64,000 nucleotides of DNA, taken from Craterostigma plantagineum (Eukaryota; Streptophyta; Magnoliopsida; Lamiales; Linderniaceae). Location: contig JAPQWV010000656.1 in the NCBI GenBank assembly GCA_027422505.1, forward strand, positions 235,001 through 299,000, read 5' to 3'. Made by a program: the position numbers and the translations under genes. This document shows positions 3,710 through 55,327 of this stretch, one piece after another (the stretch's first letter is position 1; every line of letters begins with the position of its first letter). The notes under the pieces are model-generated. The model ran no database searches. It was not told the origin of the DNA and worked only from the letters and a program-made list of their open reading frames with translations.

Positions 3710-3729
3710 GACCCAACAGAAATTGGGTA

Positions 3730-17833: not shown

Positions 17834-17842
17834 ACAATAAAC

Positions 17843-17960
17843 GGGTCTTTTTTTAAAAAAAATAGTTTTTGACATGTGGTCAAGATTAAAAAAATAGCAC
17901 TCTTGACTTATTTTTTTGGTCAATAACACTCTTTTTAATTAACACTTAATCATCTTCTTG
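17843..17960. repeat. MULE-1 left terminal inverted repeat
   Basis: About 100 bp align in inverse orientation with 29650-29770, including TGGTCA and AAAAAAATAGCAC. The identity is moderate, so the element has had time to diverge or its repeats were never perfect. Confidence 0.75.
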
Positions 17961-18028
17961 TAATCCCTTATTATTAATAAAAAACGAAAAACAAAAATAA
18001 AATATAACGCATGAAATGAATTAAAACG

Positions 18029-18240
18029 ATGCACGTCCATTATGCAGCAGAAATCATTCAGTCCACCTCACCGAATTATCCTTCTTCTTCTTCCTCATCG
18101 TCCTTAAGAAAAATCACCTATAATTTCTTCTGCTTCTGCAAATCAGTCGACCCGACCTCATATCAGCTTCTTCACAGGCGAAGGAACACTAGCAAGTCGT
18201 CAGTGAAAGATTTCGAACCTCACGCTTCACTGTAAGTATT
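18029..18240 (+). pseudogene. Fragment of MULE-1 transposase N-terminus (outer copy)
   Basis: The ORF starting MHVHYAAEIIQSTSPNYPSS is similar to the start of the minus-strand transposase gene at 26163 (shared SPNY, poly-serine and SLRKI). Nucleotide similarity extends upstream into the leader (ATGAATTAAAAC and TGCAGCAGAAA). Everything after about codon 30 differs and no transposase core follows, so this is a truncated first exon of the outer element. Confidence 0.65.
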
Positions 18241-18449
18241 TTCCTAGTCGTATTTTGAATATAATCATCTAAATTTGTAACTCTCAGTCCTAAACCCTGT
18301 TTTCAAGTAAATGGGTTCTCAAAGCTTCGAAATTCCAATCTGGAATGCCGAACATGTTCATTGTTTGGTTTTTAAAATGTCCAGTTGATCAGGGGACCCT
18401 GCTTGACAGCAGACAATCCGCGCGTTAGATCATATGACCCTATATAAAA

Positions 18450-18670
18450 GCACCACACATTAGTGCGGCGAATAAATTCACGGGACCGGCACATAAATTC
18501 ACGGGACCCGCACATAACTTCATGGGACCCGCACATGAATTCATGGGACCCGCGCATCAGTGCATGGTTCCCGCACATTAGTGCCGGCGCATTAGATCAT
18601 AGGACCCGCACATAAATGCAGGGTACCTGCGTGCAAAAATAGGGGACCCGCGCAGAATCGCTTCTTATTG
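18450..18670. repeat. GGGACCC 21-bp motif array 1
   Basis: Consecutive units of 21 bp start with GGGACCCGCACAT and end in a variable tail (for example GGGACCCGCACATAACTTCAT). Several units in a row keep the 21-bp spacing, then it loosens. The array follows the transposase fragment. Confidence 0.85.
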
Positions 18671-18809
18671 ATAGGTCACATGCCCCCATACACGCGGTGG
18701 TCGTAAACCATAATTTCATTTTTTTTCAAATGTTATATACTGATGTGTGGCCATGAGAGCGTCGAATTTCCGTTGGAAGGACTGTTAGTCGTGGTCAGGC
18801 TTCATGCAC

Positions 18810-18945
18810 TAGAGCTTGGTCACATGCACTAGAGCTTGGTTCCCGTACACAAGATCTTGGGTCCCGCGCACTAGAGCTTGGGTCCCACGCACTAGAGCTT
18901 GGGTCCCGTGCACTAGAGCTTGGGCCCGCGCTATATGTTAGGGTT
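18810..18945. repeat. GGGTCCC 21-bp motif array 2
   Basis: Five or more 21-bp units of the form TTGGGTCCCGCGCACTAGAG, so the motif appears here as its inverse (GGGTCCC). Some units are nearly identical, which suggests recent local amplification. Confidence 0.85.
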
Positions 18946-19062
18946 TTCGAAAGGTCTTACGGTTTTGCAAGCTGTAGGGCTTCAATTATGTCTACATCAT
19001 TATCAAACACACACCATCCGAAAATAACATTTTTAAATAATCTCATAAACAAAACAGGAAGA

Positions 19063-19444
19063 ATGCTGACGGACGCCCAAATCGTCGTCCCCTCTGAAAT
19101 CGTTTCGTAACTCGGACCCCTGGACTACCACGGCCGCCGCCGTCCGCCGCCGTCTAGAGGCCAACCTCGGCGTCGACCTCTCCCAAAGGAGGGCGTTCAT
19201 CGTGGCCGAGATCGACAGATTCCTAAACGGTGACGACGATGCTCTCGAGGTCGACGACGACGACGACGATGCTTTGAGCGAAGTGATTCAAGGACAAGCA
19301 CCCGAGGCTGTCCGAAATGACGACGAAGAAGCTCTGACCAAAGTGAGCCAAGGAGCAGGCGAGGTTGTCCGAAATGCCCCCCTTGCAGAACGAACAAGCT
19401 CGGGTTGGAGAAGGGCGAGAAAAAGAAAAAGAAGGGTAGAATAA
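19063..19444 (+). pseudogene. Captured SWIB/UAF30-type N-terminal exon (DEK_C domain) inside MULE-1
   Basis: The frame that ends at 19444 reads SFRNSDPWTTTAAAVRRRLE, then ANLGVDLSQRRAFIVAEIDR and FL, the three-helix DEK_C pattern found at the start of plant SWIB/MDM2-domain proteins. The likely original start, MLTDAQIVV at 19063, is in another frame, so at least one frameshift separates start and domain. Behind the domain lies an acidic segment with a repeated piece (SEVIQGQ and TKVSQGAG) and a basic end (RARKRKRR). The exon is GC-rich, unlike its surroundings. It has no link to transposition and looks like a host gene piece picked up by the element. Which host gene is unknown. Confidence 0.7.
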
Positions 19445-19839
19445 ATTATTTAATAATATCAAGATATGCTATTGTAATTGTATTGCACGTGATAATGATT
19501 TACATCTAAATATTTTGGATTTAATTTTAAGCATTATATATTATGACCCTGATCTAATTAGTATTGTATTTTAAATTAAATATATTTTATAATATTTAAT
19601 TAGGTTTAAAAATATATAGATAGTTGTATTTAATTAGTTAGTTATGTAATAAACATAAAGGGGTATTAAAGGGTTTCAGGTTTTACTGTAGCGAATGGAC
19701 CCGTGATAGAACAGTAAAAGTAAAAAAGCAACCATCGCTTTAACTTTATATTCAATTCAATCGTTCTTTCTCCTGCACACAAAACACCCTGCAAATCGTT
19801 TCGCTGCAAGTAAAACCCAAATTCAAACCTCAAACGACA

Positions 19840-22800
19840 ATGGCAATCAGCGCAACACCCAGAGAGTGAAGGTATTTGTTCTACTCTTCGTCTTCAATTA
19901 GCACCCATCGAACCCTAATTTGGTGCGGACCCGTGCTTGCAAGCATAGGACCATGCTTGCAAGCATTGGACCGTGCTTAGAAGCATATGACCCATTTTCA
20001 CGGCACCCGCCCATAAGATGATGGTCCCAGCACGGGTCCACTGCGTATAAGCGTGGTCCCCTGCTTATAACGAGCGGGTTCCCTGCTCGTAGCGAGTGGG
20101 TCCCGTGACCTTGCGCCTGTGAAGAACAACACGGGACCCGCGTGCTAGTAGCAGGGGACCCGCGCGTTATTAGCATGGGACCCGCGCGTTTACGAAGGGG
20201 ACCCGTGCGTGGACCATCATCTTATGGGCGGATCCCGTGAAAATACGCACAGGTCCCGTGATAATTCGCACAGGTCCCCTGATCATGTGCAGGGGTCTCA
20301 TTTTGCATCTGTGCTTGAGTGTCAGCATATGCGATGCGGTCCCCTGCCCATATGTGCATAAGGGTTTTCTATTGTCAATATTCTTACCAAGTAACAGGGG
20401 ACGAAGTTCCTGATTGCGTCTTACGCTGAGCTCGTTATACAGCGAGGCCAGCGAGCTGATAAGACAGTGTCTTAACCAGGAAGAGCTTCAGATTTTTTGT
20501 GCCGAGAGTCCATTCGGCCGCCTTGTTATAGCCGAGCCGGATTTTAACCTCTCGCTTCAGGTGCTGTGGTACCTCATCCAGAGGCAGACCACTCTGCACA
20601 ACCGCGAAGAGCTGTCGATGATTGTTGGCAACAAACCACTCCTATTTTCAAAATCGTAGTACTATCTAATCACCGGGCTCAAGTTCGAAGTCGTGCTACC
20701 GCCGGTGAACGGCAATGAAGCATTGGCGAGGAGACATTTTTGCGGAAGATCAGCAATTAGCATGTCGCACGTCAAGCATGCGTTAGAGGAGTTGACTGGC
20801 GACGAGGAACGTGTGGAGTTGGAGAAGCTGAAGTTGGCGAACGTCTACTTCGCCACCGCCGTGTTGTTGGCTCGAAAGTCAAAGAAGGACACCGCCGTCA
20901 GTCCCTGGGTCCTTCATCTCGCTGAAGACCCGTTTGCTTTCTCGCAGTATCCTTGGGGCAGCGTGGCTTTCAAGGATATCATACGCGCTGTTAAAAAAAA
21001 TCTACGAGAGATCCCACGGGAGTGGCTGATAAGTGGGTTCGTGCAGCCACTTCAGGTGATTTATAATTAGGCTTTGCCACACATTAGATTTTGACATGAT
21101 TGCTAATATTTTTGCGTTATTTGTATTCAGACTAGCATACGAGTGCATACCGGGCATTGCGGACGAGTTTTCGAGGCGCAAAGAAGAAGATTCCACGCCA
21201 CGCATGCGCAGGTGGGTGATGACAAATTGAGTCGCAAGGGATGCCCGAGTTTTAAGTCTGTCGCAGCTGTCGCTGACGTGCCCCATGTACGAGGATTGAT
21301 AGTGCCGTCAGCGGACGAGCTGGAGGGGTCGTACTTTAGGGACAGCGTTTTCGTCGTTGGGGCGGCACACGAGCTATTCGATCGTGTGACGGGCCTACTC
21401 ATGCAAGGTGCGGAGGTCAGATGTTCCCGCGGCCACCGCCATCGCGACGAGAGTTCTAGTCGGCAGACTTTGGAACCTGAGACCATCCCCCAGATCGAGA
21501 GTAGTGGCCATCGCGACGACGATGTGATGATGCCTCACGTCGATCCCCGAACATCCGCACGAGCACGACATTCATGCAACTCCGGAGACGGGTCCATCAA
21601 GTAGTCATGGTTTTGCCTCGGGTCCACGCTTCTAGGAATGGTCAGTCGTGTGGAGCAAAACTTCACCAACTTGTTTGGGCGATTCGCCAATTTGACACGC
21701 ACTTCCAACAGTTTCAAGAAGAGGGTCGACAGTGGTCGACGAACGAGAGAAGGTGGGATGCGTACGAGGAACATTGGACCCAAATACAATCGTGGGGCGA
21801 AAGCATCAGGGAGTTGGGGAACTCGTTTCAGGGTTTGGCGAGCAGATTTTTTGGTGGATCGCGCACTCCGCCTATCAAAGCTCGTTATAGTAAGTTTTTT
21901 ATACTTAATGGTTTTAATTAGTTGTGTAGATTACTTATCAGTTAAGATTTACGATGTAGATGTCGATCCAAGCGAGTTTGCTGGTGGATCGCACGCAACA
22001 CACGCCGAACAGTGTTACGGTAAGTTTTTATACTTAAGGACGGGAAAAATAATATATAGTTATTTTCGAATTTTCTTGTATAGATTACGATGAGAGATGG
22101 AACACATCGTACACGGGACCGGATGGCTGTCCGAGCCAGGAGGCATGGGTCGGTCACAGTCCGTCGGAATGGGCGGATTCCCATTATGGAGATTATGTCC
22201 AACCGGAATTGACCGGCGAAGAGGAAGAGAGAAGAGATGAGGTGGTCTCATCGTCGTGGATAGGCGCTTATGGTCTCGGGGTTCACGAGGTCGCGACGAA
22301 CATCGAGGCTCGGGACATCGTGCATTGGGAGGTCGAGAGGCACGACGATCCTCAGGAGGTGGACGCTCATGTCGAGACGCACGCCGAGCCTCCAGAGGAC
22401 GACGCTCAGGTGGAGACGCGCGTCGAGGCTTCGATTTCTGTCCAAGCGGCCGACAAAAGAAAAGGCGTCGTGAAAGAGAAGACCCCTGAGCGGCCGAAGA
22501 AGCCATCTTGGTAATTGACGCCGTTCACCGATTTCCCCTTGACGAATACAGTCAAAGCTCCTAAACTTTCGGCGTTCGAGCGGCATATCCAGTTCAAGGC
22601 AACCAAACACTAGCCGTCGATCGAAAGTAAACTTTTAACGCTCATGAAGATTACCAATGCAAAAGTCGAGGGAAAGCTACAACAACACGACCCTGGATGG
22701 ATCCTGAACGTTGCGACTGAGGGTATTCCACTCGATGAGATGGTACGTATGAATTTACCAAATACCGTTCGTCACCTTACCTGAATGTGTTGAAAAAGGT

Positions 22801-23491
22801 CTATATTTTATTGCAGCACGTCGATGAATGCCTCGCTGGGATCGTCAACATGCAGAAATTTAGCAAATCGGTTGCGAGCTCAGTCGCGTACATGCCCCAT
22901 AGCTTTAAGACGCTCGTCGATGAGCGAGGGGTGCTAAGTACCACCGGGAAGCCATGTGGGAAAGGCTTCAAGAGATTGCTCCCGTTTGCCCGGGGAGAAG
23001 ATAAAGATTGGAAGAACAGGTCGTGGGATCTAGCGACCCACGTTGCCATCCCCATGTGTACGCGAGGCCGATGGGTGTTGTTCGTTGTTGATGTGTCAGG
23101 GAAGTCGTTCAAGATTTACGACTCCAATGCGCCTCCTGTCTTCGAGTGGCGATATATCGCCGACGACGTCAATAAACTTCTGATCGTAATTCCGATGATT
23201 TTCAAGGAGCTGAACCTGATAAAACGCATGCCATCCAAGGGCAAGAGCTGGCCAGCTGATTGGCGTCGCGACTTCAGAAAACAAAATGAGTAAGTTTTTT
23301 ATACTTAAGTTTGCGTTAAGTTTTCAAGAATGTTGCGTTGTATTTATCGGTCGTCGTGTTTAAAAATAAATGTCATGTCGGATATGATTTTTAGGGGAGA
23401 AGCTGGCGTGGCGATGTTGCGGGCTGCAATGTCGCTTATGATGAAGAAGGACGACGTCTCGCCTCAATCAAACTCATATGAAGGATTTTAG
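19840..23491 (+). pseudogene. MULE-1 DUF1985 + C48 (Ulp1-like) protease gene, copy 1
   Basis: A short first exon (ATG at 19840) runs into an in-frame stop before the donor at 19872; the first intron contains a motif array. The DUF1985 part follows (20398-21060): LYSEASELIRQCLNQEELQI, SPFGRLV, LWYLIQRQTTLHNREEL, then a stop at 20657-20659 where copy 2 has glutamate, then YYLITGLKFEV, SPWVLHLAEDPFAFSQYPWG and EWLISGFVQPLQ. Later exons hold VRGLIVPSADELEGSYFRD and a charged linker. The protease part (about 22790-23491) shows HVAIPM with the catalytic histidine and KIYDS with the aspartate, but the segment expected to be DCGV reads EAGV after the last intron, so the nucleophilic cysteine is missing. 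It lies in opposite orientation to copy 2. Confidence 0.8.
19915..20365. repeat. GGGACCC motif array 3, inside intron 1 of DUF1985 copy 1
   Basis: The array combines GGACCCGTGCTTGCAAGCAT-type units with GGGACCCGCGCGTT- and GGTCCCCTG-type units. It starts directly after the splice donor region and ends before the acceptor near 20397. The inverse array at 28870-29350 sits in the same intron of copy 2, and the two begin with almost the same sequence (CGAACCCTAATTTGGTGC). Confidence 0.85.
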
Positions 23492-23809
23492 AAAATGCAT
23501 GTTCTATTTTGAAGAATGATTGGGACAGTTTTTAATAATATTTTTTGTTGATTAAAATTTCTTGTGTTGTATATAAATTTCATGTATTGTTGAATTTCTC
23601 TGTTGAATTTTAATTTTTACTTGTTTGATATTAACTTTACGTATGTTGGATATGAATTTAGGGTTTAAAATTGTGAAAGATTGATTTTTTTTTCTGTGTT
23701 TTCCATCTTTTTGTCAGTATGAGCGTGATGTGTAATTTGACATAAAAAATCTGTTGCAAGTGATTTGACATAACTTTACTAGGTTGATATTAACTTTTCA
23801 GCTGTTTGC

Positions 23810-24065
23810 TACGCACGTTCCCTGCGCGGGTCCCCTGAATATAAGTGAGGGGACCCTGCTCATAACGCGTAGGTCCCCTGCCCTTTACGCATGGTCCCCT
23901 GCTTATGTCGCGCAACAATTTGACGGACCAGGCAATAACATGCTCATAATTTTGACGGGACCAAGGACAACCCGAACATCTCAGTATGGGGACTATGCAA
24001 TATGCGCGGGTCCCCTGTTTTGACGCGCGGGTCCCCTGCCCATAACATGTGGGTCCCCTGTGTTC
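23810..24065. repeat. GGGTCCCCTG motif array 4
   Basis: Units such as GGGTCCCCTGAATATAAGTGA and GGTCCCCTGCCCTTTACGCAT repeat at about 21 bp downstream of DUF1985 copy 1, with one diverged gap in the middle. Confidence 0.8.
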
Positions 24066-24507
24066 ATGTGCAATTTTTGCAATGTTAATTCATGGAAGTA
24101 AGCGATTAATTGTGCGTATTTATACTTTGTTTATCGTATAATACAATATAAAGTCATCATAAAATAGCACAGAACCAAAAAATTGGATAAAAACACAAGA
24201 ATTACATTCAGTCTATAAGATTGTTACATCCTACAGAAATCACAAACACGAGTATGTTTTCTGGGTGTGTTCTCTTACTATATTCACGTCAGAGGTCGTT
24301 CAACTTCAAATACTTGTTGGAATATTTTTTTTTTTAAAACTTGGAGTTAGATATTGTTAATCTAGCGGTTAATTTTTTTTAACGCGCACTTAATTTTTTA
24401 TTAATTATTATCTTATTAAGGAATTTTATAATATTAGATTTTCACATCCTTTGAAGCCCCAAATTGGGAATCAAATGTCAAGTCATCTGTCATGTACATC
24501 TGTATAA

Positions 24508-24573
24508 TGACACTGCTCTGACATGTCACTTTTGACCAAGAAATGAAGACACTGCTCTGACATGTCACTTTTC
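24508..24573. repeat. 25-bp direct repeat
   Basis: GACACTGCTCTGACATGTCA plus CTTTT occurs twice, about 39 bp apart, next to the palindrome at 24575. The TGACATGTCA part resembles the very end of DUF1985 copy 2 (GACATGTGA) and may be a remnant of the same 3' end. Confidence 0.6.
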
Positions 24574-24574
24574 A

Positions 24575-24596
24575 TCAATAATTGAACAATTATTGA
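24575..24596. repeat. Palindrome CAATAATTG-AA-CAATTATTG, first copy
   Basis: A perfect 9-bp inverted repeat with a 2-bp centre. The same 21 bp occur at 26621-26641, and the flanking sequence there (GGTTGGTCACG) is the inverse of the sequence here (CGTGACCAACC). It marks the boundary between the protease gene end and the motif array in both element halves. Confidence 0.8.
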
Positions 24597-24634
24597 TCCC
24601 ACTCAATAAGCGAACGTGACCAACCTTAATGTGC

Positions 24635-24890
24635 GGGTACCATGTTGTAATCGGCGTCCCCTGCATTTAACGTTTGGGTCCCATGCTCGTAACGCGCCCC
24701 TCCCTACGCGCAAGGCTATTGGGACGCGTTACTAACATGGTACCCAAACCTTAAAATCAGGGGACCCTCACGTTATGATCAGGGGACCCGCGGGAACCAC
24801 AAAGATGCGCAGGGGTCTCATGCGCATCCGTGCGGGATTCTCTGCATATGCGATGCGGTCCCCTGCGCATCTGTGCATAAGGGTTTTCTA
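24635..24890. repeat. GGGACCC motif array 5
   Basis: Mixed GGTACCATG-, GGTCCCCTGC- and GGGGACCC-type units between the palindrome and the truncated end of the transposase. The spacing is less regular than in arrays 1 and 2. Confidence 0.75.
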
Positions 24891-24928
24891 ATTCCGTATT
24901 CATATCGTAATTTTCTAAAATGTGCTAC

Positions 24929-26163
24929 CTAAACTTGAAAGCCTAACATGGCAACGCAACACAGAAAGCAGACGCACTTAACACAACCTAACATAACGGA
25001 ACACAAATGGCAACGTATAAACGTACGTAATACAAAACTATGAAACGCGTTCAGAAAAATGGCCGAAACTGCATTCTTTATTCCAGGATTCCGATCAGAA
25101 ATTATCACGAGATCGTCGCCATCTGCGACAAAACGTCGCAATCTCGAGAGAAACCACGTCCACGACTTCGTTCCCTCCGTCCCGTCGGCAAGACCCCATG
25201 CCACAGGATATTGATGGTACTCGTCGTCTTGCGCAGTGGCAATCATCATGACACCCTTATACTTCCCCTTTAGAAAAGTCGCGTTGATAGAAATGACTTT
25301 TCTCATGAACGTAAAGCCTCTGACGCATGCGCCGTATGCCAAGAACATGTACTTGAACCGATTGTCTTCGTCCATCTCCCAATCGATGATATTGCCCTCG
25401 TTTGCTTGCTTCACCGCAACAAAGTATGCCGGCAGTAAACTGTAGCAAGCGTCCTTGTTACCAACTAGTTCATTGGTCGCAATTTGTTTCCCTCTCCAAG
25501 CCTTGTAGTATGAAACTTGTACCCCCTGCTCTGCACCATCGATGTCTTTAGGAGCCCTGAATTTTTCCAACAACGTGCTCGATACGAGCGACAAACTTCC
25601 CTGACGATGTCTCCGGCGTTTATATCGCACTGCGCTATAAGGCCAATGCCGAAACCAGACAAATCATTACCATGAGTTTGATGTGGCGCAATGACGGATA
25701 ACTCAAGTTCCACGTGAAGAGGTGGTCTTGATCGTGGACAACCACAACCAAGGTACGCACGTATGCCGTAATCATTCTCGATGTAGATGGGGCGCACATA
25801 ATTGTAGTCTATGCAAGGCATGTAGCTTATCCTTACTTTGGTATTGTCGTTGCGTAACGACAATGCATTCATTATCTCGTTAGTGAGATCCACTAACGTG
25901 CATGAACCGTCGTCGACAAGATTGATTGCCACCGGCAACTTGGATGGGGAACCCAGTTCGACGTATTGTCCTCACAAATTATCCACTGACCATCGACTTG
26001 AAAAACAATGCTCGTGATCGTCATGATTATCACCTATCTTTGGCCAAATGTAGCTGATTTTTCTTAAGGACGTTGATGTAGAAGAAGAATAATTAGGTGA
26101 GCTTGCTTGGTGGAATGAATGCTTTCTGCTGCAAAATGGTCGTGCGGCTTTTAATACATTCAT
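24929..26163 (-). pseudogene. MULE-1 MudrA-type transposase, truncated
   Basis: On the minus strand the gene starts at 26163 (MNVLKAARPFC), changes frame near 25975, continues with LPVAINLVDDGSCTLVDLTN and PCIDYNYVRPIYIENDYG (N-terminal MuDR region), shifts frame again near 25630 and then reads the DDE core: GVQVSYYKAWRGKQIA, FKYMFLAYGACVRGF, ATFLKGKYKGVMMIATAQDD, WGLADGTEGTKSWTWFLSRL and DLVIISDRNPGIKNAV. The first catalytic aspartate (family form VDGTF) reads INATF, so it is lost. The second (SDRN) is present. The zinc-ribbon part, the catalytic glutamate region and the SWIM finger are missing; the sequence stops making sense near 24960. It is an inactive remnant. Confidence 0.85.
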
Positions 26164-26234
26164 CCGTTGTTTTTAATTAATTTATTTTACTTTTTCTTTT
26201 ATAAGAGAATTAAGGGAATAGAAGAAGCTGATTA

Positions 26235-26570
26235 ATTATACACAAGGGACCCGCACATAAGGTAAGGTCCGTGCACATATACACAAGGGACCGACGCTTT
26301 GTGATCTGGAGACCATCACGTGAAAGCAGGGGACCCGCACATATGGTAAGGTCCTTGTATACACAAGGGACCGGCGCTTTTTGATCTGAGGACCATAACG
26401 TGAAAGCAGGGGACCCGCACATATGGTAAGGTCCTTACGCATATACACAAGGGACCGACGCTTTTTGATCTGGGTACCATAAGGTGAAAGCAGGGGACCC
26501 GCACGTAGTCACCAGGAGACCCGCGCATATTGCATTGGCACTGATGGACGGGGCCCAAGCGTATATGAAT
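26235..26570. repeat. GGGACCC motif array 6
   Basis: Units of GGGACCCGCACATATGGTAA and GGGACCGACGCTTTTTGATC alternate in a higher-order repeat of about 88 bp (three copies). It begins directly upstream of the transposase leader. Confidence 0.8.
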
Positions 26571-26620
26571 GGGTCGTCTGCCAAATTTAGGGTTGGTCAC
26601 GTGCGCCTACTGAGTCGTAC

Positions 26621-26641
26621 CAATAATTGAACAATTATTGA
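26621..26641. repeat. Palindrome CAATAATTG-AA-CAATTATTG, second copy
   Basis: Same 21 bp as at 24575-24595, with inverted flanks. It lies just past the end of DUF1985 copy 2, as the first copy lies past the presumed end of its partner. Confidence 0.8.
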
Positions 26642-26664
26642 GTATTGGGTCAAAAAATTTTCTC

Positions 26665-29457: not shown

Positions 29458-29649
29458 TGTCGATTGTGTCGATTGATTTGGGTTTGAGTTGTAGACAGAA
29501 TAAATGATTTGCAGTGCAGGGGCGGGAGATAATGCTTACTTTTTTTACTAAAAGTGAAAGTGGTTGTTTTTTTACTTTTACCATACAGTATAACATGTAA
29601 ACCCTTTAATTAATTTTTTCGTTAAGTGTTGTTGAGGTTGTTGATTGAC

Positions 29650-29770
29650 ATTAAATAAGGGCAAAATAGTCTTTAGCGCAGAGTTAGTAAGGGTACAAAG
29701 GTAAAATCCGATTTTGGGTGCTATTTTTTAAAAGATGACCAAATCAAAGGCTATTTACTTAAGTAATCCC
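29650..29770. repeat. MULE-1 right terminal inverted repeat
   Basis: This is the inverse partner of 17843-17960. It is followed immediately by the target duplication ACAATAAAC at 29771-29779. Confidence 0.75.
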
Positions 29771-29779
29771 ACAATAAAC

Positions 29780-35521: not shown

Positions 35522-35739
35522 TCTATTACTATTATAAAAGCACGAATGTGGCCAGTTTTCAATGTGAGTTGCAGGTTATTCATTGCTTTTAATTATCTGT
35601 GCAAGTAACCTGCATTTCCAAGTTCCAAGTTGATTCCATTACCTTTCTTGTATATTTAACTTTATTGTAACGTAGATGTATGTAACATGTTACAACAAAA
35701 TATATAAATAATAACAAAATCGCTTATGAGTATATTATA

Positions 35740-35890
35740 GGGGTAACCTCAACTAAATTCCCGTTTGTTAAAAGTTTATCAAGTAACTCCCCATTTCAGT
35801 TTATTTATTACTAAACTCCCTACATGAAAACATTGCATCACATCACTACCCATTTAATTGAATAGACGATTTTACCCCTCATTTATTATT
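35740..35890. repeat. MULE-2 left terminal inverted repeat
   Basis: Aligns inversely with 47165-47309, including AACTCCCCATTTCA, TTATTACTAAACTCCC and GACGATTTTACCCC. Moderate identity. Confidence 0.8.
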
Positions 35891-36424
35891 TTTTAAATAT
35901 TTTCTTCTCCCATATTATCGAAGACACCGCGCGCCACCGTTCCCAGACCTCGTCACCCATATTTTTCTCCCCTTCGTCTTCAGCTCCTCGCCGGAAAGCT
36001 CCTCACCTATCCAATCACACTGGGTTTCTCGGTCCAGGTAAGTTGAGGTAAGTTTTATGTTTTTTTTCCACCGAGGGTTACTCGTCGAGTTTCTTGACTC
36101 GAGCGATTTGAGCTCGATCGAACGAAGTTGAGCTCAAGAACCCTCCGTTGAAGTGCTCACTTAACGTTTGTGGCAGTGAAATAGGGTTTTTCCCACTTTG
36201 TTGTCGAGCTGTGGCTGTCGAGTATTGGGGTCGAGCTGTAAAAAATTGGATTTTATCCTCCATTTTCTACCATTACCATACTGTGGGTGTCGAGGGAGGT
36301 GAGCGATTGGTTTAATTTTGGCTAATTTGTTGGTTGAAGCAATTTCTTATATGCAGTACCAAAGCGTCTTGAAGGTGAGTATCATTTGCTGTTCAAATTT
36401 TAACAGGTCCGATTATATGAAGCT

Positions 36425-38834
36425 ATGTTGTCTACAAATGTCTTTGGTGGACTCACGTTGTTTGCATTGTGCGAATATAAGAAGAGCACGTATTTATTGA
36501 CGATCAATGAAACGACGAGTCTAATAGATTTATACGTAATCCTCCAAAGAAGATGGCCGGAGATCGATTCACGAGATGACTGGATAAAGTTTCAGGTTCC
36601 GCTTGAAAGTATTTACGCAACTTTGAAAGAAAATGGAGACGTGTTCAATATGTTCCAACTCTATCAACGGCTGAAATTTTCTGTGATCCATATGAAAGTC
36701 GAACGTAATGATGGAAATGGAATGGGTGAAATCAGTCGGGTGGAGACGTTTGTTTTATTTTCTGAATTTAAACGTCTATGTATATTAATTTCCTACCAAT
36801 GATTGATGACATTTTTTGATTTTTCTTGTAGTGTGGAAGAGAATGAAGACTCCATGGAATTTAACATTGAAAGAAATTCAATAGATGCATTTCGTCACTG
36901 CATTGATGGAGAAGGGCAAACCTTCGAGGATGCAAATGATTTCAGACGGATCTTAAAAAACTACTCCATTGCCATCCGTCGTAACTTTTTGTATAAGAAG
37001 AATGATTCCCAAAAGATCATAGTTGTTTGCAAGGATGAGACGTGTCAATGGCGGATATATGCATCACTTCATAAAAGGGATAGATCATTTGGCATTCGAA
37101 GATGCAACTTGCGGCACACTTGCGGAGAAGATAGTATTAAGAGTCGTGATCATCCTCGAGCCGACTCCCCTTGGATTGGGAACATAATGAAGGATAAGTT
37201 ACGGGACGAGCCATCTTATCGTCCAAATACCATTGTCAAAGATATTTTGAGGGACTATGGCGTAGAAGTGGGTTACCAAAAGGCTTATAGAGGCAAAGAA
37301 GCTGCTATCCGTGATGTTTATGGCTTAGAGAATGGCACGTTTGATCAATTACGGTGGTATTGTAGCGCGGTTAGGGAAACCAATCCCGGCAGTGTGGCGG
37401 AGTATGATTTATACCCTAACGACAATAAGTTTCGGAGGCTATTTATTTGCTTCCGCGCATGTCTGGTTGGTTTTGTGCAAGGATGTCGGCCACTCATATT
37501 TGTCGATGGTACTCACATCAAGACAAAGTTTAAGGGTGTGTTGGTTACCGCCGTGGCAAAGGATGCCAACGATGATTTGTTCACGATAGCGTATGGCGTC
37601 GTAAGCGTTGAGAACGATGAAAATTGGGAATGGTTTCTTGTAAAGCTGAGGAGCATGTTCGATCACTACCCGACGATAGCGAGAGAATTCACTTTTCTCT
37701 CAGATAGGCACCCAAGTATTGTAAGTGCTGTTTCGTTGGTATTCCCGGGATCCCGACATGCATATTGTTTGCGTCATTTAGTTGACAACTTCAGAAAAGA
37801 GGTAATTATAAAGGCTGTTAATTTACTATAAAGGCTGTTTAGTTAGAGGGTACTGCAAAAAAACAAATATAGGTACTATGCAGATAGCAACATAGGTACT
37901 GTCATACTGTATCTACTGGTACTACAGGATTATTTGTGCATTTTCTATGTTTTAGTGTGTTTCTGTACATATATGATCACTCATGACTTGTTTGTATCCG
38001 TGTTTAGGTGTTGAGGCATTATCCATTGCTCAACAAGAAGCACTGGTGTAGTGTTTTCAAAAAAGCAGCATACGCCACGACGGCTAGCAAGTTTTCTGAA
38101 CACATCACCAACATTTTCCAGTGTATGCCCTTGGCACAGCAATTTATTAGAAATTCTCAACCAAATTGTTGGGAGAATTCATTGTTTGATGGGAAGAGGT
38201 GGGGTGTTATTAATAACAATCTAGCGGAGTGTTGGAATAGTTGGGTGAAAGATGCACGATCGTTGCCGGTGAAGGGAATGGTTGACAACATTCGTGTGAA
38301 GATAATGACGCAAATGTATGAAAGACGTGAAAAGGGATTGACCCTTTCCGATGATCTTTGCCCGAAACAAGAGAAGAAACTCGTGGCCAATATAGAGAGT
38401 AGTCGTACATTGAAGTGAGTAAGTCTAGCGCCGTTAAAATTGAAGTTGTTGCTCAAGATGGCTCATTCTCCGTGGATATACAACAAAGCTCTTGCTCGTG
38501 CAAAGAATGGGATGTTTATGGGATACCATGTAAGCATGCGGTGGCGTGTATATGTTCGATGGGGCTATCTGTTTATGACTATTGTGATCCATATTTCCGA
38601 TCCCAAAAGTATAGGGATGCATATCGCACTGTCATCAACCCTATTCCGACAAATGAGATGAATGCTCAAGCCACTGATAAAGAATATATTCGTGATCCAG
38701 ACATCCGTGTTATGCCCGGTCGCCGAAAGATGCGGAGGTACCCTTCACAAGTTGATAGAAATAGAAACAAGTGCAAAATATGTGGAAAATATGGGCATAA
38801 TCGTCGTACGTGTAAAGAAGCCGTACGTACATAG
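36425..38834 (+). CDS. MULE-2 MudrA-type transposase (DDE + SWIM + CCHC), one frameshift
   Basis: Exon 1 starts at 36425 (MLSTNVFGGLTLFALCEYKK) and ends near 36740; the donor phase is not fully resolved. Exon 2 runs from about 36832 to 37801, exon 3 from 38008. The protein has a MuDR N-terminal part, a zinc-ribbon-like segment (IIVVCKDETCQWRIYASLHK), and the MULE DDE core: IFVDGTHIKTKFKG (first Asp), FTFLSDRHPSIVSAV (second Asp), HAYCLRHL (C-x2-H) and NNLAECWNSWVKDAR (Glu). After position 38415 a one-base shift is needed to reach the SWIM finger CSCKEWDVYGIPCKHAVACI and the final CCHC knuckle CKICGKYGHNRRTC, ending at 38834. All catalytic residues are present. The single frameshift may be a real mutation or a sequence error. 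Intron 2 contains a GGTAC array. Confidence 0.85.
37849..37940 (+). repeat. GGTAC 23-bp array inside the transposase intron
   Basis: Four consecutive units start GGTACTGCAA, GGTACTATGC, GGTACTGTCA and GGTACTACAG. The first three are each exactly 23 bp. The array lies in intron 2 (37802-38007) of the transposase, the same motif and period as the large array downstream. Confidence 0.9.
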
Positions 38835-38869
38835 CTTAGTTGCCCGCATTTTGCATGTATTTTGTTGTG

Positions 38870-39065
38870 TTTTTTGTCGTTTTGTCCATATGGTCGTTAT
38901 GCCATCTTTTTGTGGTTATGGCATATTCTTTTGTCTATAGGTTGTCGATTGGTTATGACACATTCTTTTGTCGATATGTTGCCGATAGGTTATGGCACAT
39001 TCTTTTGTATTGGTTGCGGCACATTCTTTTGTCGATATGTTGCCGATAGGTTATGACACATTCTT
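38870..39065. repeat. Short tandem repeat after the transposase stop
   Basis: Units of GGTTATGGCACATTCTTTTG followed by TCGATATGTTGCCGATA (about 37 bp, with shortened versions) repeat four to five times in the probable 3' untranslated region of the transposase. It is distinct from the GGTAC repeat. Confidence 0.75.
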
Positions 39066-39319
39066 AGTCGATACGTTGCCATATCTTTAATTTTTTGTTA
39101 TACAAGTACTGTAAGATACTACAAACAACCTATATATGGTACTACAATAACGAACATTATGACACCACAATCATCCAAGGTTAGGTACTACAAACCACGC
39201 ATTTATGGTACTACGAGAGCTCATTCTATGGTACTTCAACGGACCAAGTTATGGTACTACGAGAGCATAACTTATGATACCACAATAATCCACGGTTAGA
39301 TACCGCAAATATCTACGTA

Positions 39320-40207
39320 ATGGTACGACAAATTAGATTTGGCGTACTCCGAAGCCGCTCGCACGGCATAGAAAAGGTACTACAAAGACCAATTTATGGT
39401 ACTACGAGAGCTCATTTTATGGTACTTCAACGGACCAAGTTTAGGTACTACAAATCGTACGACAAAATGGATTGGGCGTACTTCGAAGCTGCTCGCACGG
39501 CACGGAAATGGTACTACAAACGACCTAGTCGTGGTACTACGGGTTCATAATTTATGGTACCACGAACGTATACAACATGGTATTTCAATATTCCGGAGCT
39601 AGATACTACAAAAGTCTAGGTGTTGGTACCTCAAGATTCTACATATTTTGGACAATCGAAGGGGCACGGAAAAGGTACTACAGAGTACCTAAATATGGTA
39701 CTGTAAAAACGTAAGGGACGGTACTGCAATTATCCTTAAGCAGGTACAACAATTGTCTACGTAATGGTACGACAAATTAGATTTGGCGTACTCCGAAGCC
39801 GCTCGCACGGCACAGAAAAGGTACTACAAAGACCAATTTATGGTACTACGAGAGCTCATTTTATGGTACTTCAACGGACCAAGTTTAGGTACTACAAATC
39901 GTACGACAAAATGGATTGGGCGTACTTCGAAGCTGCTCGCACGGCACGGAAATGGTACTACAAACGACCTAGTTATGGTACTACGTGTTCATAATTTATG
40001 GTACCACGAACGTATACAACATGGTATTTCAATATTCCGGAACTAGATACTACAAAAGTCTAGGTGTTGGTACCTCAAGATTCTACATATTTTGGACAAT
40101 CGAAGGGCCACGGAAAAGGTACTACAGTGTACCTAAATATGATACTATAGAAACGTAAGGGAGGGTACTATAATTATCCATACGTAGGTACAACAATTGT
40201 CTACGTA
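39320..40207. repeat. Higher-order repeat, 444-bp unit, two copies
   Basis: 39320-39763 and 39764-40207 are almost identical, each made of the same series of 23-bp units. A third copy begins at 40208 but diverges after about 25 bp. Confidence 0.9.
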
Positions 40208-40534
40208 ATGGTACGTCAAATTAGATTTGGTACTAGACCCGACCGAGTTATGGTACTACGAGAGCACAAGTTCTGGTACAACAATCATCCAAGTCTAGGG
40301 ACCGCAAAAATGTACGTTATGGTACGACAAATTAGATTTGGCGTACTTCGAAGCTGCTCGCACGGCACGGAAAAGGTACTACAACCGACCGAGTTAAGGT
40401 ACTTCGATATCACACTATATGATACCACAATCATCCCAGGTTGGTACGGCAAAAGTGTAGGTAATGGTACGACAAATTAGATTTGGCATACTTCGAAGCC
40501 GCTCGCACGGCACGGAAAGGGTACTACAATCGAA

Positions 40535-42840
40535 GGGGCACCGAAAAGGTACTACAGTGTACCTACTTATGGTACTACAGAAACGTAAGGGATGGTACCG
40601 CAATGATCCATATGTAGGTACACCAAATGTCTAGGTAATGGTACGACAAATTAGATTTGGCGTACTCCGAAGCCGCTCGCACGGCACGGCAAAGGTACTG
40701 CAATCGACCGAGTTATGGTACCCCGTTATCACACTCTATGATACCGCAACAATCCAGGCATAGGTACCACAAAAGTGTACATAATGGTACGACAAATTAG
40801 ATTTGTCGTACTTCGAAGACGCTCGCACGGCACGGAAAAGGTACTACAAACAACCCAGATATGGTACTGCGCTGTTACATTCCATGATACCAAAATTATC
40901 CACGGATAGGTACCACAAATGTGGACGTAATGGTACGATAAATTAGATTTGGCGTACTTCGAAGCCGCTCGCACGTTTCGAAAAGGTACTACAAACGACC
41001 TAGATATGGTACTGTAAGAGCACATATTTTGATACCACAATTATCTACTATTAGGTACATCAAATATGTACTTACTGGTACCACAATTAGATTTGGCGTA
41101 TATCGACGTCGTTCGGGTCATTTTTGGTCCGTTAGTACTTTACCGTAGTAAATCATAGTAATTTGATCAATTGGTATCGAAGTTGGTGTGTTGAAGATTA
41201 GACTCAAGGATACCTACATTGAAATCCCAACTTTCTTTCCACTCAATTGATGCTAGTAACAATATCTTACCACATAGTCAACATTTAACGTTGATTTATA
41301 TTTAAAATTTTTGTTCTTTGCCATGTTATGCAAGCTCTAGGTCTTTAATACTCAAGATTCTACGTGCTTTCGACAATCGAAGGAAGGGGCACCGAAAAGG
41401 TACTACGGAGTACCTACTTATGGTACTACAGAAACGTAAGGGATGGTACCGCAATGATCCATATGTAGGTACAACAAATGTCTAGGTAATGGTACGACAA
41501 ATTAGATTTGGCGTACTCTGAAGCCGCTCGCATGGCACGGCAAAGGTACTGCAACCGACCGAGTTATGGTACCCCGTTATCACACTCTATGATACCGCAA
41601 CAATCCAGGCATAGGTACCACAAAAGTGTACATAATGGTACGACAAATTAGATTTGTCGTACGTCGAAGACGCTCGCACGGCACGGAAAAGGTACTACAA
41701 ACAACCCAGATATGGTACTGTGCTGTTACATTCCATGATACCAAAATTATCCACGGATAGGTACCACAAACGTGGACGTAATGGTACGATAAATTAGATT
41801 TGGCGTACTTCGAAGCCGCTCGCACGTTTCGAAAAGGTACTACAAACGACCTAGATATGGTACTGTAAGAGCACATATTTTGATACCACAATTATCTACT
41901 ATTAGGTACATCAAATGTGTACTTACTGGTACCACAATTAGATTTGGCGTATATCGACGTCGTTCGGGTCATTTTTTGGTCCGTTAGTACTTTACCGTAG
42001 TAAATCATAGTAATTTGATCAATTGGTATCGAAGTTGGTGTGTTGAAGATTAGACTCAAGGATACCTACATTGAAATCCCAACTTTCTTTCCACTCAATT
42101 GATGCTAGTAACAATATCTTACCACATAGTCAACATTTAACGTTGATTTATATTTAAAATTTTTGTTCTTTGCCATGTTATGCAAGCTCTAGGTCCTTAA
42201 TGCTCAAGATCCTACGTGCTTTCGACAATCGAACGAAGGGGCACCGAAAAGATACTACCTACTTATGATACTACAGAAACGTAAGGGATGGTACCGCAAT
42301 GATCCATATGTAGGTACAACAAATGTCTAGGTAATGGTACGACAAATTGGATTTGGCGTACTCCGAAGCCGCTTGCACGGCACGGCAAAGGTACTGCAAC
42401 CGACCGAGTTATGGTACCCCGTTATCACACTCCATGATACCGCAACATCCAGGCATAGGTACCACAAAAGTGTACATAATGGTACGACAAATTAGATTTG
42501 TCGTACTTCGAAGACGCTCGCACGGTACGGAAAAGGTACTACAAACAACCCAGATAAGGTACTGCGCTGTTACATTCCATGATACCAAAATTATCCACGG
42601 ATAGGTACCACAAACATGGACGTAATGGTACGATAAATTAGATTTGGCGTACTTCGAAGCCGCTCCACGTTTCGAAAAGGTACTACAAACGACCTAGATA
42701 TGGTACCGTAAGAACACATGTCATGATACCGCAATTATCTACGTTTAGGTACATCAAATGTCTACTTACTGGTACCACAAATTAGATTTGGCGGGTCATT
42801 TTTTGGTCCGTTAGTACTTTACCGTAGTTATGGTACTACG
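40535..42840. repeat. Higher-order repeat, 851-bp unit, two full copies and a partial third
   Basis: GGGGCACCGAAAAGGTACTAC recurs at 40535, 41386 and 42238, and the sequences between are nearly identical. Each full copy includes about 200 bp without the GGTAC motif (41150-41340 and 42000-42190). The third copy is truncated near 42840. Confidence 0.9.
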
Positions 42841-43721
42841 GGTGCATAATTTATGATATTACAATTATCCACGATTAGGTAGTGTAAATGTCTATTTACC
42901 GGTACCACAAATTGGATTGGGCTTACTTCGCAGCCGCTCGCACTGCACGGAAAAGGTACTACAAACGACACATTTCTGGTACTACGAGAGCTCACTCTGT
43001 GATACTTCAATGGACCTATGTTAGGTACTACAAATCGTACGACAAATTGGATTGGGCGTACTTCGAAGCCACTCGCACGGCACGGAAATGGTACTACAAT
43101 AGACCAAGTTATGGTACTACGACAGCATATATAATGGTACCTCAATCATCCACGGTTACGTACTACAAATATCTACGTATTGGTACCACAAATTAGATTT
43201 GGCGTACTTCGAAGCCGCTCGCACGGCACAGAAAAGGTACTACAAACGACCCATTTATGGTACTACGAGAGCTCATTCTATGGTACTTCAATGGTTATGA
43301 TTAGGTACTACAAATCGTACGACAAAATGGATTGGGCGTACTTCGAAGCTGCTCGCACGGCACGGAAATGGTACTACAAACGACCTAGTTATGGTACTGC
43401 GGGTTCATCATTTATGATACTACAAATATCCACGATTAGGTACTATAAAAGTCTACATAATGGTACGACAAATTAAATTCGGCGTACTTCGAAGCCGCTC
43501 GCACGGCACAGAAAAGTTACTACAAACGACCCATTTATGGTACTACGAGAGCTCAGTCTATGGTATTGCAATGGACCACGGAAACGGTACTACAAATCGT
43601 ACGACAAATTGGATTGGGCGTACCGTATGGTACAACAACCGATCCAATTTAAGTACTACAAATGGTACTATAATAGAGAAACTTAGGTACTACCTTCTAG
43701 TAATATTGGTACTGCGTAGAT

Positions 43722-43887
43722 GTTTGTTCAGGTACTACAAAACCTACAGATGCCAAAAACATACACAAGTCACATCCTACCAATATCAACAGCATCTCAG
43801 TCTGTTTGTTCAGGTACTACAAAACCTACAGATGCCAAAAACATAAACAAGTCACATCCTAAGAGGATCAAAAGCATCTCAGTCTCA
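43722..43887. repeat. 83-bp tandem duplication at the end of the array
   Basis: TTTGTTCAGGTACTACAAAA and the following bases occur at 43722 and 43805. It lies directly beyond the stop codon of the protease gene (minus strand), so it may be part of its 3' untranslated region. Confidence 0.8.
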
Positions 43888-43902
43888 AAACACAGGCAAA
43901 CA

Positions 43903-46559
43903 TCACTCAAACAAGTGGAGCATGCAACTAAGATCATCCTTAAGTATCGTGGCAGCCATGAAGCCACGATACAGTTCGACGTCAACCTCGTCAAGGTACC
44001 TCCCACGAGCCACAGGTCCAACGATATATCGATCCATGGACATTGCAGTATGCACGCCGCAATCAACGCCATCCGGATTCTGCTGCCTCGTGGACTCAAA
44101 CTCTGGCATGATTGACTTTGCCTTATAGTCCCACTTGTATGTCCAGTAGGTCGACAGAAAACGGGCCTGTACAATATACCTCTCGTTAAGAAAATGACAT
44201 AAAGCATTTAGTTCACAAAAATTCAAACTTACAAATGATCTAGTCGCCCATTTCATGTGATTGTGCTTCAGCGAATCTCGTACGTAAAACCGTCTTTCCC
44301 CCAACTTGTAAATCAACACAGCCCAATGATTTCTCATGTATATAGGGGATATGATGTAGTGTAGGGTTCCCAAGGCAACATCATCAATCTTATCCAACCA
44401 GGCCACCGCGCTATCGGAAAGTGACTCCACAATCTCTCCAATCGTGTTCATGTTTACCTTCGCGGTCTTCGTTATGTTTACCACCTTCGTGAAGAACTCT
44501 ATCTGGACGAAGGACGGGATCACGAACGAACGAGGTCTGTCTTCGGGATTGCCTCCATAACGTTGGAGACAATCGCCGAACGCATCTATCACGGGAGACG
44601 ATATCAAGCCACCGTAGAGCAACATATAGAAAGCTTCGGGATTAACCTCACAAAGGTCGTTCTGCCAAACCATTAACCTTGCAACAGCCCAATAAGAATT
44701 AAAACACATTAATTAAAGGCAACATATTTAAAAAGGCAATTAACAACACTGGCACTTAAATTAAACGTACCCAATCTTCCTCGCCTCTATGTACGTGTTG
44801 ATGCAATCTCTCTGTTCGGTTTGCAACTTCTCTTTCCCAGCGTAGTCCGTACGACCCATGTACCTCTCATACCAGTCAATGGGAGCCTCCTCATCTGATC
44901 CTTGCTCGCCTATTTCAACTACTTGAGTTGGTGCTTTCGCCGTCTTCCTTTTTTTCTTCGGCGCTGTAATATCGGAGGATCCTGGCGTAGTAAACTCAGA
45001 ATCCCGCTTCTTCTTTCTATCTTCACGGCCTCTCACTGTTCGTGCTATCGATGATGCCGCTGACAGTGCCACGGGCTTTGGCTCGAGTTCAACTTTATTC
45101 AAATCAGCAAGGACGATTGCCACTGTCTCATCAGCCTGTGCCTGCGCCTTCGCCGCCTCATCAGCCACCCCAGCCTGTCCAACCTCAGCCTCCTTTGCGA
45201 CCTCATCCTCCCTTGCGACCTCATCCTCCCTTGCAACCTCAGCCTCCTCCTTTTCAACCTCAGCCATCTCATCCCAGCCCTCACCAACACCACCCCCACC
45301 GTCTAAATCAAACGATGCAGCAATCTCATCATCACCTCTGGACTTTCCATCCTCAGCCTCAGCCTCAGCCTCCTCTGTCGCTACCCGAATCCTCGCTCTC
45401 AACTTTTCAATTACATCATTTTTTTCCGCATCGCAGCCTCCAACTGTTCAACACGTGCTCTCAGATCATTCTTCAGTTTCGAACGTATCTCATCCCCTTG
45501 ACCTTGTTCCCCTCCAATTACCTAAAGAAAACAAATATTGTTAATATTAAGAAACATAAAAATGCGCTATTTGAGAACCCATGTTATATACCATTTGCAT
45601 TTGCGCAATTGGTTCCACAAACTTCATCTCGTTTCTTCGAGGGATAATCGGAAGAACACTGGTAATTTCAGCTAGTTGTGTCTCCGCAATCCTACTATCA
45701 TTTGGAACATACGGAATTCCCAATTGAACCATCGTGGGAACATATAGGGATGCCTCTTTCGTGCCAACGAAGGCACATGCTCATACACCCACATCTATAA
45801 ACACGAACGCACGCATTAGAATTATAGGAAGAGCACAAAATACAAGCTGAAATAACAAAATAAATAAAGTAACTTACCATCAATCCAATAGTGCAACCAT
45901 TGATCGTCACATTCGATCCCTCATTTTCAAAGGCAGCGGCAATTTTCATCTCCTCCAACAGAAAATTATGCACGGCCGCTCCCCAAGCATATTCTCCAAG
46001 ACCCTCTAGATCGTCCACGTATACATTAACAAAAGATGGGTTTTTCGAATTACCCATCGGAAAAAGTACAATTAAATAAGAGAAGAATGACAGCACGAAC
46101 AAAATCCTCAACACTCTCCTTCTCCTCCTCACCAACTAAAGACTTCAACAACTTCATTATACTTTTTCGTGTTACATTGCCATTTTTCCCATCAAAATGG
46201 CGTTCAACGATTGACGCCGTAAATTTACTATCCGGATCAACGGGTTGCCCTAAATGGTGCAACCCCATCACCAAACTAAACTCCTGAGGTGAGAATATAA
46301 CGTCTATATCATCACCGAACCGAAAAGTGTTCTCCTCCACTTTATAGCGCCTCAATAATGCCACAATTCTTGTAAAAGATTGTGACATCTTCGGCATCTC
46401 CAAGAAACTGTAGAATGGAGTCTGCTTTAACAGTTTTTTGTGTTCCTCCTTCAGCCCTAATTCAATTATCGTCTCTCTAAAAAGGTTGGGATGACACCGT
46501 GATGTCATCTCGTAATTATTTCTTCTTGAGCCGGAGGGTTTTTTCGACTTCCGTGCCAT
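43903..46559 (-). CDS. MULE-2 DUF1985-like + C48 (Ulp1-like) protease gene
   Basis: The start is the ATG at 46559 (MARKSKKPSGSRRNNYEMTS). The N-terminal part (TPFYSFLEMPKMSQSFTRIV, IFSPQEFSLVMGLHHLGQPV, YAWGAAVHNFLLEEM, WVYEHVPSLARKRHPYMFPR) resembles DUF1985/plant-mobile-domain proteins. A one-base shift in a T run near 46076 and another near 45740 are needed. A long acidic linker with repeats (REDEVAREDEVAKEAEV) and a basic KKKRK patch follow (45525-44773). The protease exons are 44677-44233 and 44166-43903: NHWAVLIYKL (His), YVRDSL (Asp), QQNPDGVDCGVHTAMSM (Gln and Cys), a complete C48 catalytic set. C48 enzymes cleave SUMO-like modifiers; the substrate of transposon versions is unknown. 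The GGTAC motif recurs upstream of the start. Confidence 0.8.
44167..44232 (-). other. 66-nt in-frame intron within the protease domain
   Basis: The minus strand reads ATTT then GTAAGTTTG and ends TTGTACAG before GCCCGTTTTC. The intron is 66 nt, divisible by three and free of stops, so retention would add 22 residues between the aspartate and the cysteine of the active site. The sequence on both sides joins well when it is removed. Confidence 0.7.
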
Positions 46560-46594
46560 TTCTGCACGCGACAACAACAAGAGGATCAAATAAT

Positions 46595-46725
46595 AAACTT
46601 ACGGTACCATTAACTATGTAATATGGTACCAAAAACCACATACAAGGACCAATTCAATCATAGTACCAAAAAACTGTCAAGACTCGTACCAAGGCATCAC
46701 AAATGCAGTACCTTACATCGCACAG
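46595..46725 (-). promoter_or_regulatory. GGTAC motif cluster upstream of the MULE-2 protease gene
   Basis: Six to seven GGTAC or GTACC occurrences within 130 bp (for example ACGGTACCATTAAC, ATGGTACCAAAAACC, GCAGTACCTTAC) lie immediately upstream of the start codon at 46559. The 23-bp spacing is only partly kept. This would place motif sites in the gene's own leader or promoter. Confidence 0.6.
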
Positions 46726-47164
46726 TGAAATTAGAAGCTAACAAACCCTAATTTCAGTGATACCAACTTCCCCAAATCGAAAAACGAAATAATTAAACCC
46801 TAATTTTGCCATAAACCCCAAATTCGAGCCGAAATCAACAATTAAACACAGCCCGACATGAAATATTTCAAGGAATGCAACTATGAAAGCCCTAATCTCT
46901 ACATTAACACAAAATGCCACAAAAAACGAAAAAATTACAGTCGAACGAAGCGGCCGTACCGTTGAGGTGATGCGTGAAGGCCTAATATCTCGTTCGCTGC
47001 TCGTTGTGGAGGCGAAGCTGGGCCGACTGCTCTGTATCGTCGCGTCGTCGTCTGCTCCTCGTTCGTCTGCTTTTCGTTCCTCGTCTGCTTTTCGTTCCCC
47101 GTCGCTGCTTTCTTTCTTCGTCGTCCTCTCACAGTATATGAGTTCAGTTGGTTATTTTGCAATA

Positions 47165-47309
47165 TTAATGTTATAAAGGGGTATATTTGTCCATTAGTAG
47201 CTATGTGATATAATAGTTTGAAAGGGGGGAGTTTAGTGATAAATGAAATGAGAGGGTGGAGTAAGTTGATGTATAGTTTGGGGTAGGGGGATTTATGTGT
47301 AGATTTGCC
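47165..47309. repeat. MULE-2 right terminal inverted repeat
   Basis: Inverse partner of 35740-35890 (GGGGGGAGTTTAGTGATAAAT and neighbours), directly followed by the duplication TATATTATA at 47310-47318. Confidence 0.8.
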
Positions 47310-47318
47310 TATATTATA

Positions 47319-55277: not shown

Positions 55278-55300
55278 ACTTGGCGCCGTCTGTGGGAACA
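55278..55300 (+). other. Gypsy primer-binding-site region
   Basis: ACTTGGCGCCGTCTGTGGG directly follows the LTR. TTGGCGCCGTC-type sequence at this place is typical of plant Tat/Athila-group Ty3 elements. Confidence 0.7.
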
Positions 55301-55327
55301 TCTAGTTTCTTACAAATAAAATTCAGT

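Follow-up and report, generated by a model that had tools for sequence, protein, structure and literature searches.

Two neighbouring Mutator-like elements of Craterostigma plantagineum probably each pair a DUF1985-type gene with a private motif array

We analysed a 64,000-nt stretch of Craterostigma plantagineum DNA (the window, part of contig C656 of a 1.71-Gb genome; coordinates are window positions), in which two Mutator-like elements (MULEs) sit within 30 kb: MULE-1 (17843-29768, 11,926 bp) and MULE-2 (35740-47309, 11,570 bp). On our best reading, both are members of the VANC/VANDAL anti-silencing kind. It is quite probable that, in each element, a gene of DUF1985 type goes together with a private set of short motifs arrayed outside the coding DNA; the predicted role of each protein is to bind this array, by which it would unsilence no family but its own. 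In Arabidopsis, VANC proteins carry DUF1985, as the preliminary description of this DNA had correctly stated, and one of them, VANC21, binds its motif arrays and causes methylation loss (PMC5735166).

Each element was found to have its own tandem motif, and the two hardly mix, in agreement with what had been proposed for this DNA. GGGACCC occurs 32 times in MULE-1, never in MULE-2 and twice in the 40.3 kb of flanking DNA, while GGTACTAC occurs 45 times in MULE-2 and neither in MULE-1 nor in the flanks. GGTACTA is likewise confined to MULE-2 (51 occurrences, none in MULE-1 or the flanks), and of GGTAC[TG]AC, MULE-2 has 56 copies and MULE-1 a single one. In 100 first-order Markov controls for each motif, GGGACCC in MULE-1 averaged 0.86 with a maximum of 5, and GGTAC[TG]AC in MULE-2 averaged 0.91 with a maximum of 4. 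One unit follows the next after 21-22 bp in MULE-1 and, for the most part, after 23 bp in MULE-2, which bears out the unit lengths of about 21 bp (GGGACCC) and 23 bp (GGTAC) given earlier. These element-specific short tandem motifs lie in non-coding DNA: matches inside exons of open reading frames (ORFs) number 0 of 32 for GGGACCC, 0 of 45 for GGTACTAC, 1 of 49 for GGGACC, 7 of 163 for GGTAC and 14 of 181 for GTAC, and such exons make up 42% of MULE-1 and 40% of MULE-2.

The arrays are distributed over several non-coding intervals of each element. In MULE-1, motif clusters lie upstream of an ORF with a DEK C-terminal domain (18393-18931, 21-bp units with GGGACCC), upstream of the forward-strand DUF1985 gene (20023-20343), between the 3' ends of that gene and the transposase (23829-24863) and upstream of the reverse-strand DUF1985 gene (28896-29343); an 84-bp tandem array with GGGACC motifs stands upstream of the transposase (26246-26504). 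The main MULE-2 array (39106-43817, 4.7 kb) repeats GGTAC[TG]ACAAA at 23-bp steps in the interval on which the transposase and DUF1985-C48 genes converge, and higher-order repeats of 146 bp (in this array) and 444 bp are present in MULE-2. Five further GTAC motifs, spaced 23, 23, 23 and 46 bp apart, occupy the gap between the MULE-2 transposase ORFs (37850-37968), which is likely an intron, and a small GTAC cluster lies upstream of the MULE-2 DUF1985 gene (46604-46711).

Conservation within the arrays was measured with a next-unit test, which starts at each motif and compares the sequence one unit downstream without requiring a motif there; it replaced an earlier, unconditioned folding of the arrays by period, which had been blurred by insertions and deletions (indels). 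In MULE-2, the match was 0.65 in motif columns and 0.33 in spacer columns (0.52 and 0.30 two units on). The corresponding values were 0.59 and 0.36 in MULE-1 and, in three loci of MULE-2 kin, 0.89 and 0.41 (L074), 0.75 and 0.40 (L075) and 0.54 and 0.35 (L071), with off-register controls of 0.09-0.28 in motif columns. Motif distances were also periodic, repeating every 10.7 bp in MULE-1, 10.6 bp in a MULE-1-family copy (L012) and 10.3 bp in a locus with a variant motif (L008), and every 11.2-11.5 bp in MULE-2, L071, L073, L074, L075 and L076. No more than 1 of 200 runs with randomised gaps equalled the observed periodicity power. Part of this signal comes from the fixed unit length, and gaps near one, three and five helical turns are present besides the unit length. 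Since the helical pitch of the arrays differs by clade (~10.6 vs ~11.4 bp), the proteins may, more tentatively, pack differently along the DNA.

By sequence, the MULE-1 DUF1985 protein is a relative of VANC21. Its DUF1985 exon matches VANC21 (PDB 9lnj, 9lnk) at 2.5e-6 in the window copy (9lnj) and at 4.4e-9 in L012, and a joint profile of MULE-1 and MULE-2 matches VANC21 at 1.9e-13. The DUF1985-type protein of MULE-2 is likely a VANC relative as well, to judge by weaker domain evidence together with gene order and array logic. An hhalign comparison of the MULE-2 and MULE-1 profiles gave P 5.6e-4 and a probability of 29.7%, at 18-20% identity, and structure models of the two DUF1985 domains had mean predicted local distance difference test (pLDDT) values of 40.3 and 37.5.

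A MudrA-type transposase (VANA) is encoded in both elements, as had been claimed. In MULE-2, it lies on the forward strand (36404-38834, exons putatively joined), with DBD_Tnp_Mut and MULE domains in 36803-37831 (Pfam MULE 4.3e-21) and a SWIM domain in 38403-38834. Convergent to it, on the reverse strand, are a DUF1985-like exon (45698-46598), a linker ORF (44761-45447) and a C48 (Ulp1-type) end (43903-44712, Pfam C48 2.1e-8) with both the His and Cys boxes; the order of these ORFs suggests that they form one gene. The DUF1985-like exon is left with a 182-residue frame, is open over 309 residues in many sister copies, and had no Pfam match at 1e-3 in the window; the sister copy L044 reached 1.3e-6 for DUF1985. 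The gene order is the same in L074, from a subfamily 58% identical to MULE-2 in the DUF1985 exon. MULE-2-type DUF1985 exons also matched PMD, the plant mobile domain, weakly and below the cut-off (6.3e-5 at L044:1108-2037 and 2.6e-5 at L074:1345-2346).

The transposase ORFs of MULE-1 lie on the reverse strand (24929-25971; Pfam MULE 3e-11, with the domain in 24929-25663), and the ORF at 25465-25971 had no Pfam match. MULE-1 also carries two DUF1985 genes, both with putatively joined exons. The first, on the forward strand (20660-23293, Pfam DUF1985 6.6e-9), comprises the DUF1985 exon (20660-21070) and ORFs at 21107-21604, 22053-22514 and 22739-23293, the last with a weak C48 match (0.0023, below the Pfam cut-off). 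The second, on the reverse strand (26949-28651, Pfam DUF1985 7.7e-15), comprises the DUF1985 exon (28121-28651), a middle part (27382-28089) and an end (26949-27344) that has an HWAVL box near 26971 and in which Pfam found no C48 up to E 1. The MULE-1-family copy L012 has C48 at 4.8e-5. A C48 domain in the DUF1985 gene is found in MULE-2, with both boxes, and in this MULE-1-family copy. The earlier claim that each element has DUF1985-type proteins with a C48 domain holds: C48 was recovered in MULE-2 and DUF1985 in MULE-1, although C48 is weak or missing in the window copy of MULE-1 and the MULE-2 exon in the window lacks a Pfam DUF1985 match.

The two DUF1985 exons of MULE-1 lie on opposite strands within an inverted duplication (19500-23293 and 27700-29768) that holds both genes, and for this reason two related elements may be combined in MULE-1. 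The duplication may reach to ~19500, with a score of 99 where 300 random stretches gave at most 80, though its outermost part scored only 43. The DEK_C ORF (19070-19444, forward strand, Pfam DEK_C 1.2e-9), which lies inside MULE-1 with motif clusters upstream, is perhaps a captured piece of a host gene.

Both elements have recognisable ends. The terminal inverted repeats (TIRs) are degenerate, as they are in VANDALs (PMC10398659), with local scores of 50 for MULE-1 (17843-17935, forward, aligned to 29680-29768, reverse) and 72 for MULE-2 (35740-35845, forward, and 47203-47309, reverse); the maximum among 500 random pairs was 44. The long, well-matched TIRs of a classical TIR-MULE of the MuDR type were not found, the termini aligning imperfectly over ~75-105 bp. 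Flanking target-site duplications are direct repeats: TATATTATA (9 nt, 35731-35739 and 47310-47318) around MULE-2 and CCACAATAAAC (11 nt, exact, 17832-17842 and 29769-29779) around MULE-1. The terminal repeats and duplications claimed for both elements are thus present, except that the MULE-1 duplication is 11 nt and not 9 bp. The right terminus of MULE-2 fell at the same edge in all 14 loci examined (from a set of 29 other family loci), with mostly different flanks, and MULE-2 therefore represents a family of separate insertions. Two pairs of copies share a flank (L042/L043 and L053/L056), and the terminus varies in L067 (first base changed) and L060 (third base changed).

Family copies beyond the window were also compared. 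The MULE-1 DUF1985 query returned 5,909 first-look candidates, of which 150 were scored, and the MULE-2 query 2,167, of which 150 were scored, the unscored ones remaining unconfirmed; many copies among the matches listed have open frames. At least five GGGACC motifs were present in 30 of 30 MULE-1-family loci examined (which include the window copy and its allele) and in 0 of 30 MULE-2-family loci. A GTAC core is common to several subfamilies, and motif type differs between DUF1985 subfamilies that are 57-64% identical to the MULE-2 family: among six 8-kb loci of MULE-2 kin, L074 and L075 carry GTACCAAA and L071 carries GTACCTTA, both built on the GTAC core. The array of L008 (1501-2260) is built from 21-bp units with a variant motif, GCAAGGGACC, and stands beside a DUF1985 match ~48% identical to the MULE-1 family. 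A copy of MULE-1 on contig C521 was considered as an independent insertion and rejected, since it is allelic, flanks included. The same contig, allelic to the window, holds a MULE-2 copy elsewhere and in the opposite orientation (L046, near 312348), the DUF1985 part of which runs directly into the array.

Genome-wide, a pair of GGGACCC motifs was matched 45 times, against 2 for the reversed control. Eight of these loci were examined, and three (L001, L003 and L008) held arrays, all with DNA similarity to MULE-1, which took in the transposase in two cases and DUF1985 in one; the other five showed neither array nor similarity. For the MULE-2 pattern, in which a GGTAC stands 20-26 bp after GGTACTAC, there were 22,884 matches, not attributed to families, and the reversed control gave 685. 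Among the first 100 matches listed, 78 had a spacing of exactly 23 bp, and they formed 29 clusters, 20 of them with at least two matches. Three matched strings were inspected, two of which, identical to each other, are closer to the L074 type than to MULE-2.

The mechanism may be analogous to that of the Arabidopsis elements. The DUF1985-type protein would be the reader of its element's array, and sites in helical phase may let many protein copies sit adjacent on the DNA. By analogy, occupation of the array would clear DNA methylation and free the transposase gene; as with VANC21, the element's own family would be unsilenced and other elements left alone. The C48 domain might, at a guess, add deSUMOylation of silencing factors. 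Active proteins would more likely come from sister copies than from the window copies, because the latter look damaged.

That damage is among several observations that weigh against pairing of each array with its own DUF1985-type protein. The DUF1985 exon of MULE-2 is interrupted in the window, and six-frame inspection of MULE-1 found the HWAVL box and not the DCGVH box. In the MULE-2 kin tested (L044 and L074), DUF1985 stayed below the Pfam gathering score; neither a single MULE-2-family sequence nor a MULE-2-only profile found VANC21 in the PDB, and the hhalign match of the MULE-2 profile to VANC21 was weak (P 0.026). The MULE-1-family loci counted are mostly near-identical copies of one burst and are therefore not independent, and in 3.5-kb loci the families are indistinguishable by their number of plain GTAC motifs (median 13 in both). 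Three of the six 8-kb loci of MULE-2 kin fail to show a clear motif: L072 lacks an array, and in L073 and L076 there is no more than a weak GTAC core. Agreement of motif and protein type is by itself no proof of co-evolution, since related elements share DNA by descent. Lastly, motif and spacer are kept about equally in the L008 repeat (0.72 and 0.66 in the next-unit test).

This last result would suit ordinary minisatellites, grown by slippage in the non-coding DNA of transposons without a dedicated reader protein. The arrays do expand by duplication, as in the higher-order repeats of MULE-2, and one of seven indels of at least 5 bp between two MULE-1 alleles is 21 bp long and lies inside an array. 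(Three of the seven fall in arrays, which make up 17% of the element; a claim of array instability was rejected since three of seven are too few.) Slippage would not lead one to expect that motif columns are better kept than spacers in MULE-2, L074, L075 and MULE-1, that a motif is common to separate clusters, including those upstream of genes and in the intron gap, or that gaps fall near one, three and five helical turns besides the unit length, and we consider it an unlikely account of the arrays.

A reader other than the DUF1985-type protein could also be envisaged. Subterminal site arrays exist in some plant transposons, and both elements encode transposases, so the arrays might be binding sites of the MudrA-type protein. 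The main MULE-2 array, however, lies in the interior of the element, 3.4-8.1 kb in from its left end, there are other clusters in the intron gap of the transposase gene and ahead of genes, and a known reader of such arrays, VANC21, is a DUF1985 protein (PMC5735166), all of which make transposase sites improbable. There is also a very slim chance that the arrays are read by a host factor, whether they serve as promoters or yield small RNAs by which the element is silenced. RNA-directed methylation can be fed by tandem repeats, and in Arabidopsis it acts on the same non-coding regions as do VANCs (PMC10398659), but a motif of its own in each element family and in three sister-subfamily loci is not readily explained in this way. 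Host-factor reading can be compatible with recognition of the arrays by DUF1985-type proteins, which we continue to prefer.

More tentatively, this one plant genome may hold at least five pairs of DUF1985-type protein and motif (CAGGGGACCCGC; GCAAGGGACC; GGTAC[TG]ACAAA; GTACCAAA; GTACCTTA), a possible radiation of address codes that share two cores, GGGACC and GTAC, and shift their specificity through the bases on either side. If this is true, comparison of sister subfamilies would reveal the VANC protein-DNA code directly. Understanding of how transposons escape silencing without damage to the host comes mainly from Arabidopsis. Two private systems, together with sister subfamilies whose motifs lie a few bases apart on a common core, form a natural series for DNA choice by VANC-type proteins, and the same series may show joint change of protein and motif. 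Such protein/motif pairs could serve as motif-addressed tools for clearing methylation.

Other content of the window includes Copia-like and Gypsy-like retrotransposon frames in the flanks (2348-6437 and 55145-60733, recognised by eye) and an At2g24240-like gene.

A literature search recognised no paper on these elements, though related systems are well described. The abstract of Sasaki et al. 2022 reportedly deals with domains gained and lost, with diversified motifs and with a helical periodicity. The closest counterparts are VANDAL21/VANC21 and VANDAL6/VANC6 of Arabidopsis (Hosaka et al. 2017, PMC5735166), which are likewise MULEs with degenerate termini and a DUF1985 protein. Their motifs differ from those found here, being YAGTATTAY for VANC21 and AGTTGTCC/AGTTGTAC for VANC6 (PMC5735166), as against GGGACCC and GGTAC[TG]ACAAA. 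By inspection, without a chance estimate, the MULE-2 core resembles AGTTGTAC (reverse complement GTACAACT) and the MULE-1 core resembles AGTTGTCC (GGACAACT). Unlike VANDAL21 and VANDAL6, the elements described here have a C48 part, MULE-1 carries a second DUF1985 gene along with a DEK_C ORF, and the main MULE-2 array lies between convergent 3' ends. In joining a VANC-type gene (in MULE-2 a likely one) to Ulp1/C48 within a MULE that has its own motifs, they resemble the Ulp1-carrying VANDALs (Kaonashi, KIU) and eudicot VANC systems (Hoen et al. 2006 and Sasaki et al. 2022, described in PMC13317346); in having a ULP1-type gene in a MULE, they resemble elements of melon, rice and grapevine (van Leeuwen et al. 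2007; Benjak et al. 2008; both cited in PMC13317346). Ulp1-bearing VANC elements with their own motifs have already been described (Sasaki et al. 2022, cited in PMC13317346), and for this reason the logic of the system, including its Ulp1-bearing versions and motif co-evolution, is not new. The preliminary description's suggestion of a new instance of co-evolving protein and motif fits as regards the instance, and the novelty of MULE-1 and MULE-2 is that of a new instance of a known system, with motifs unlike those of VANC21 and VANC6.

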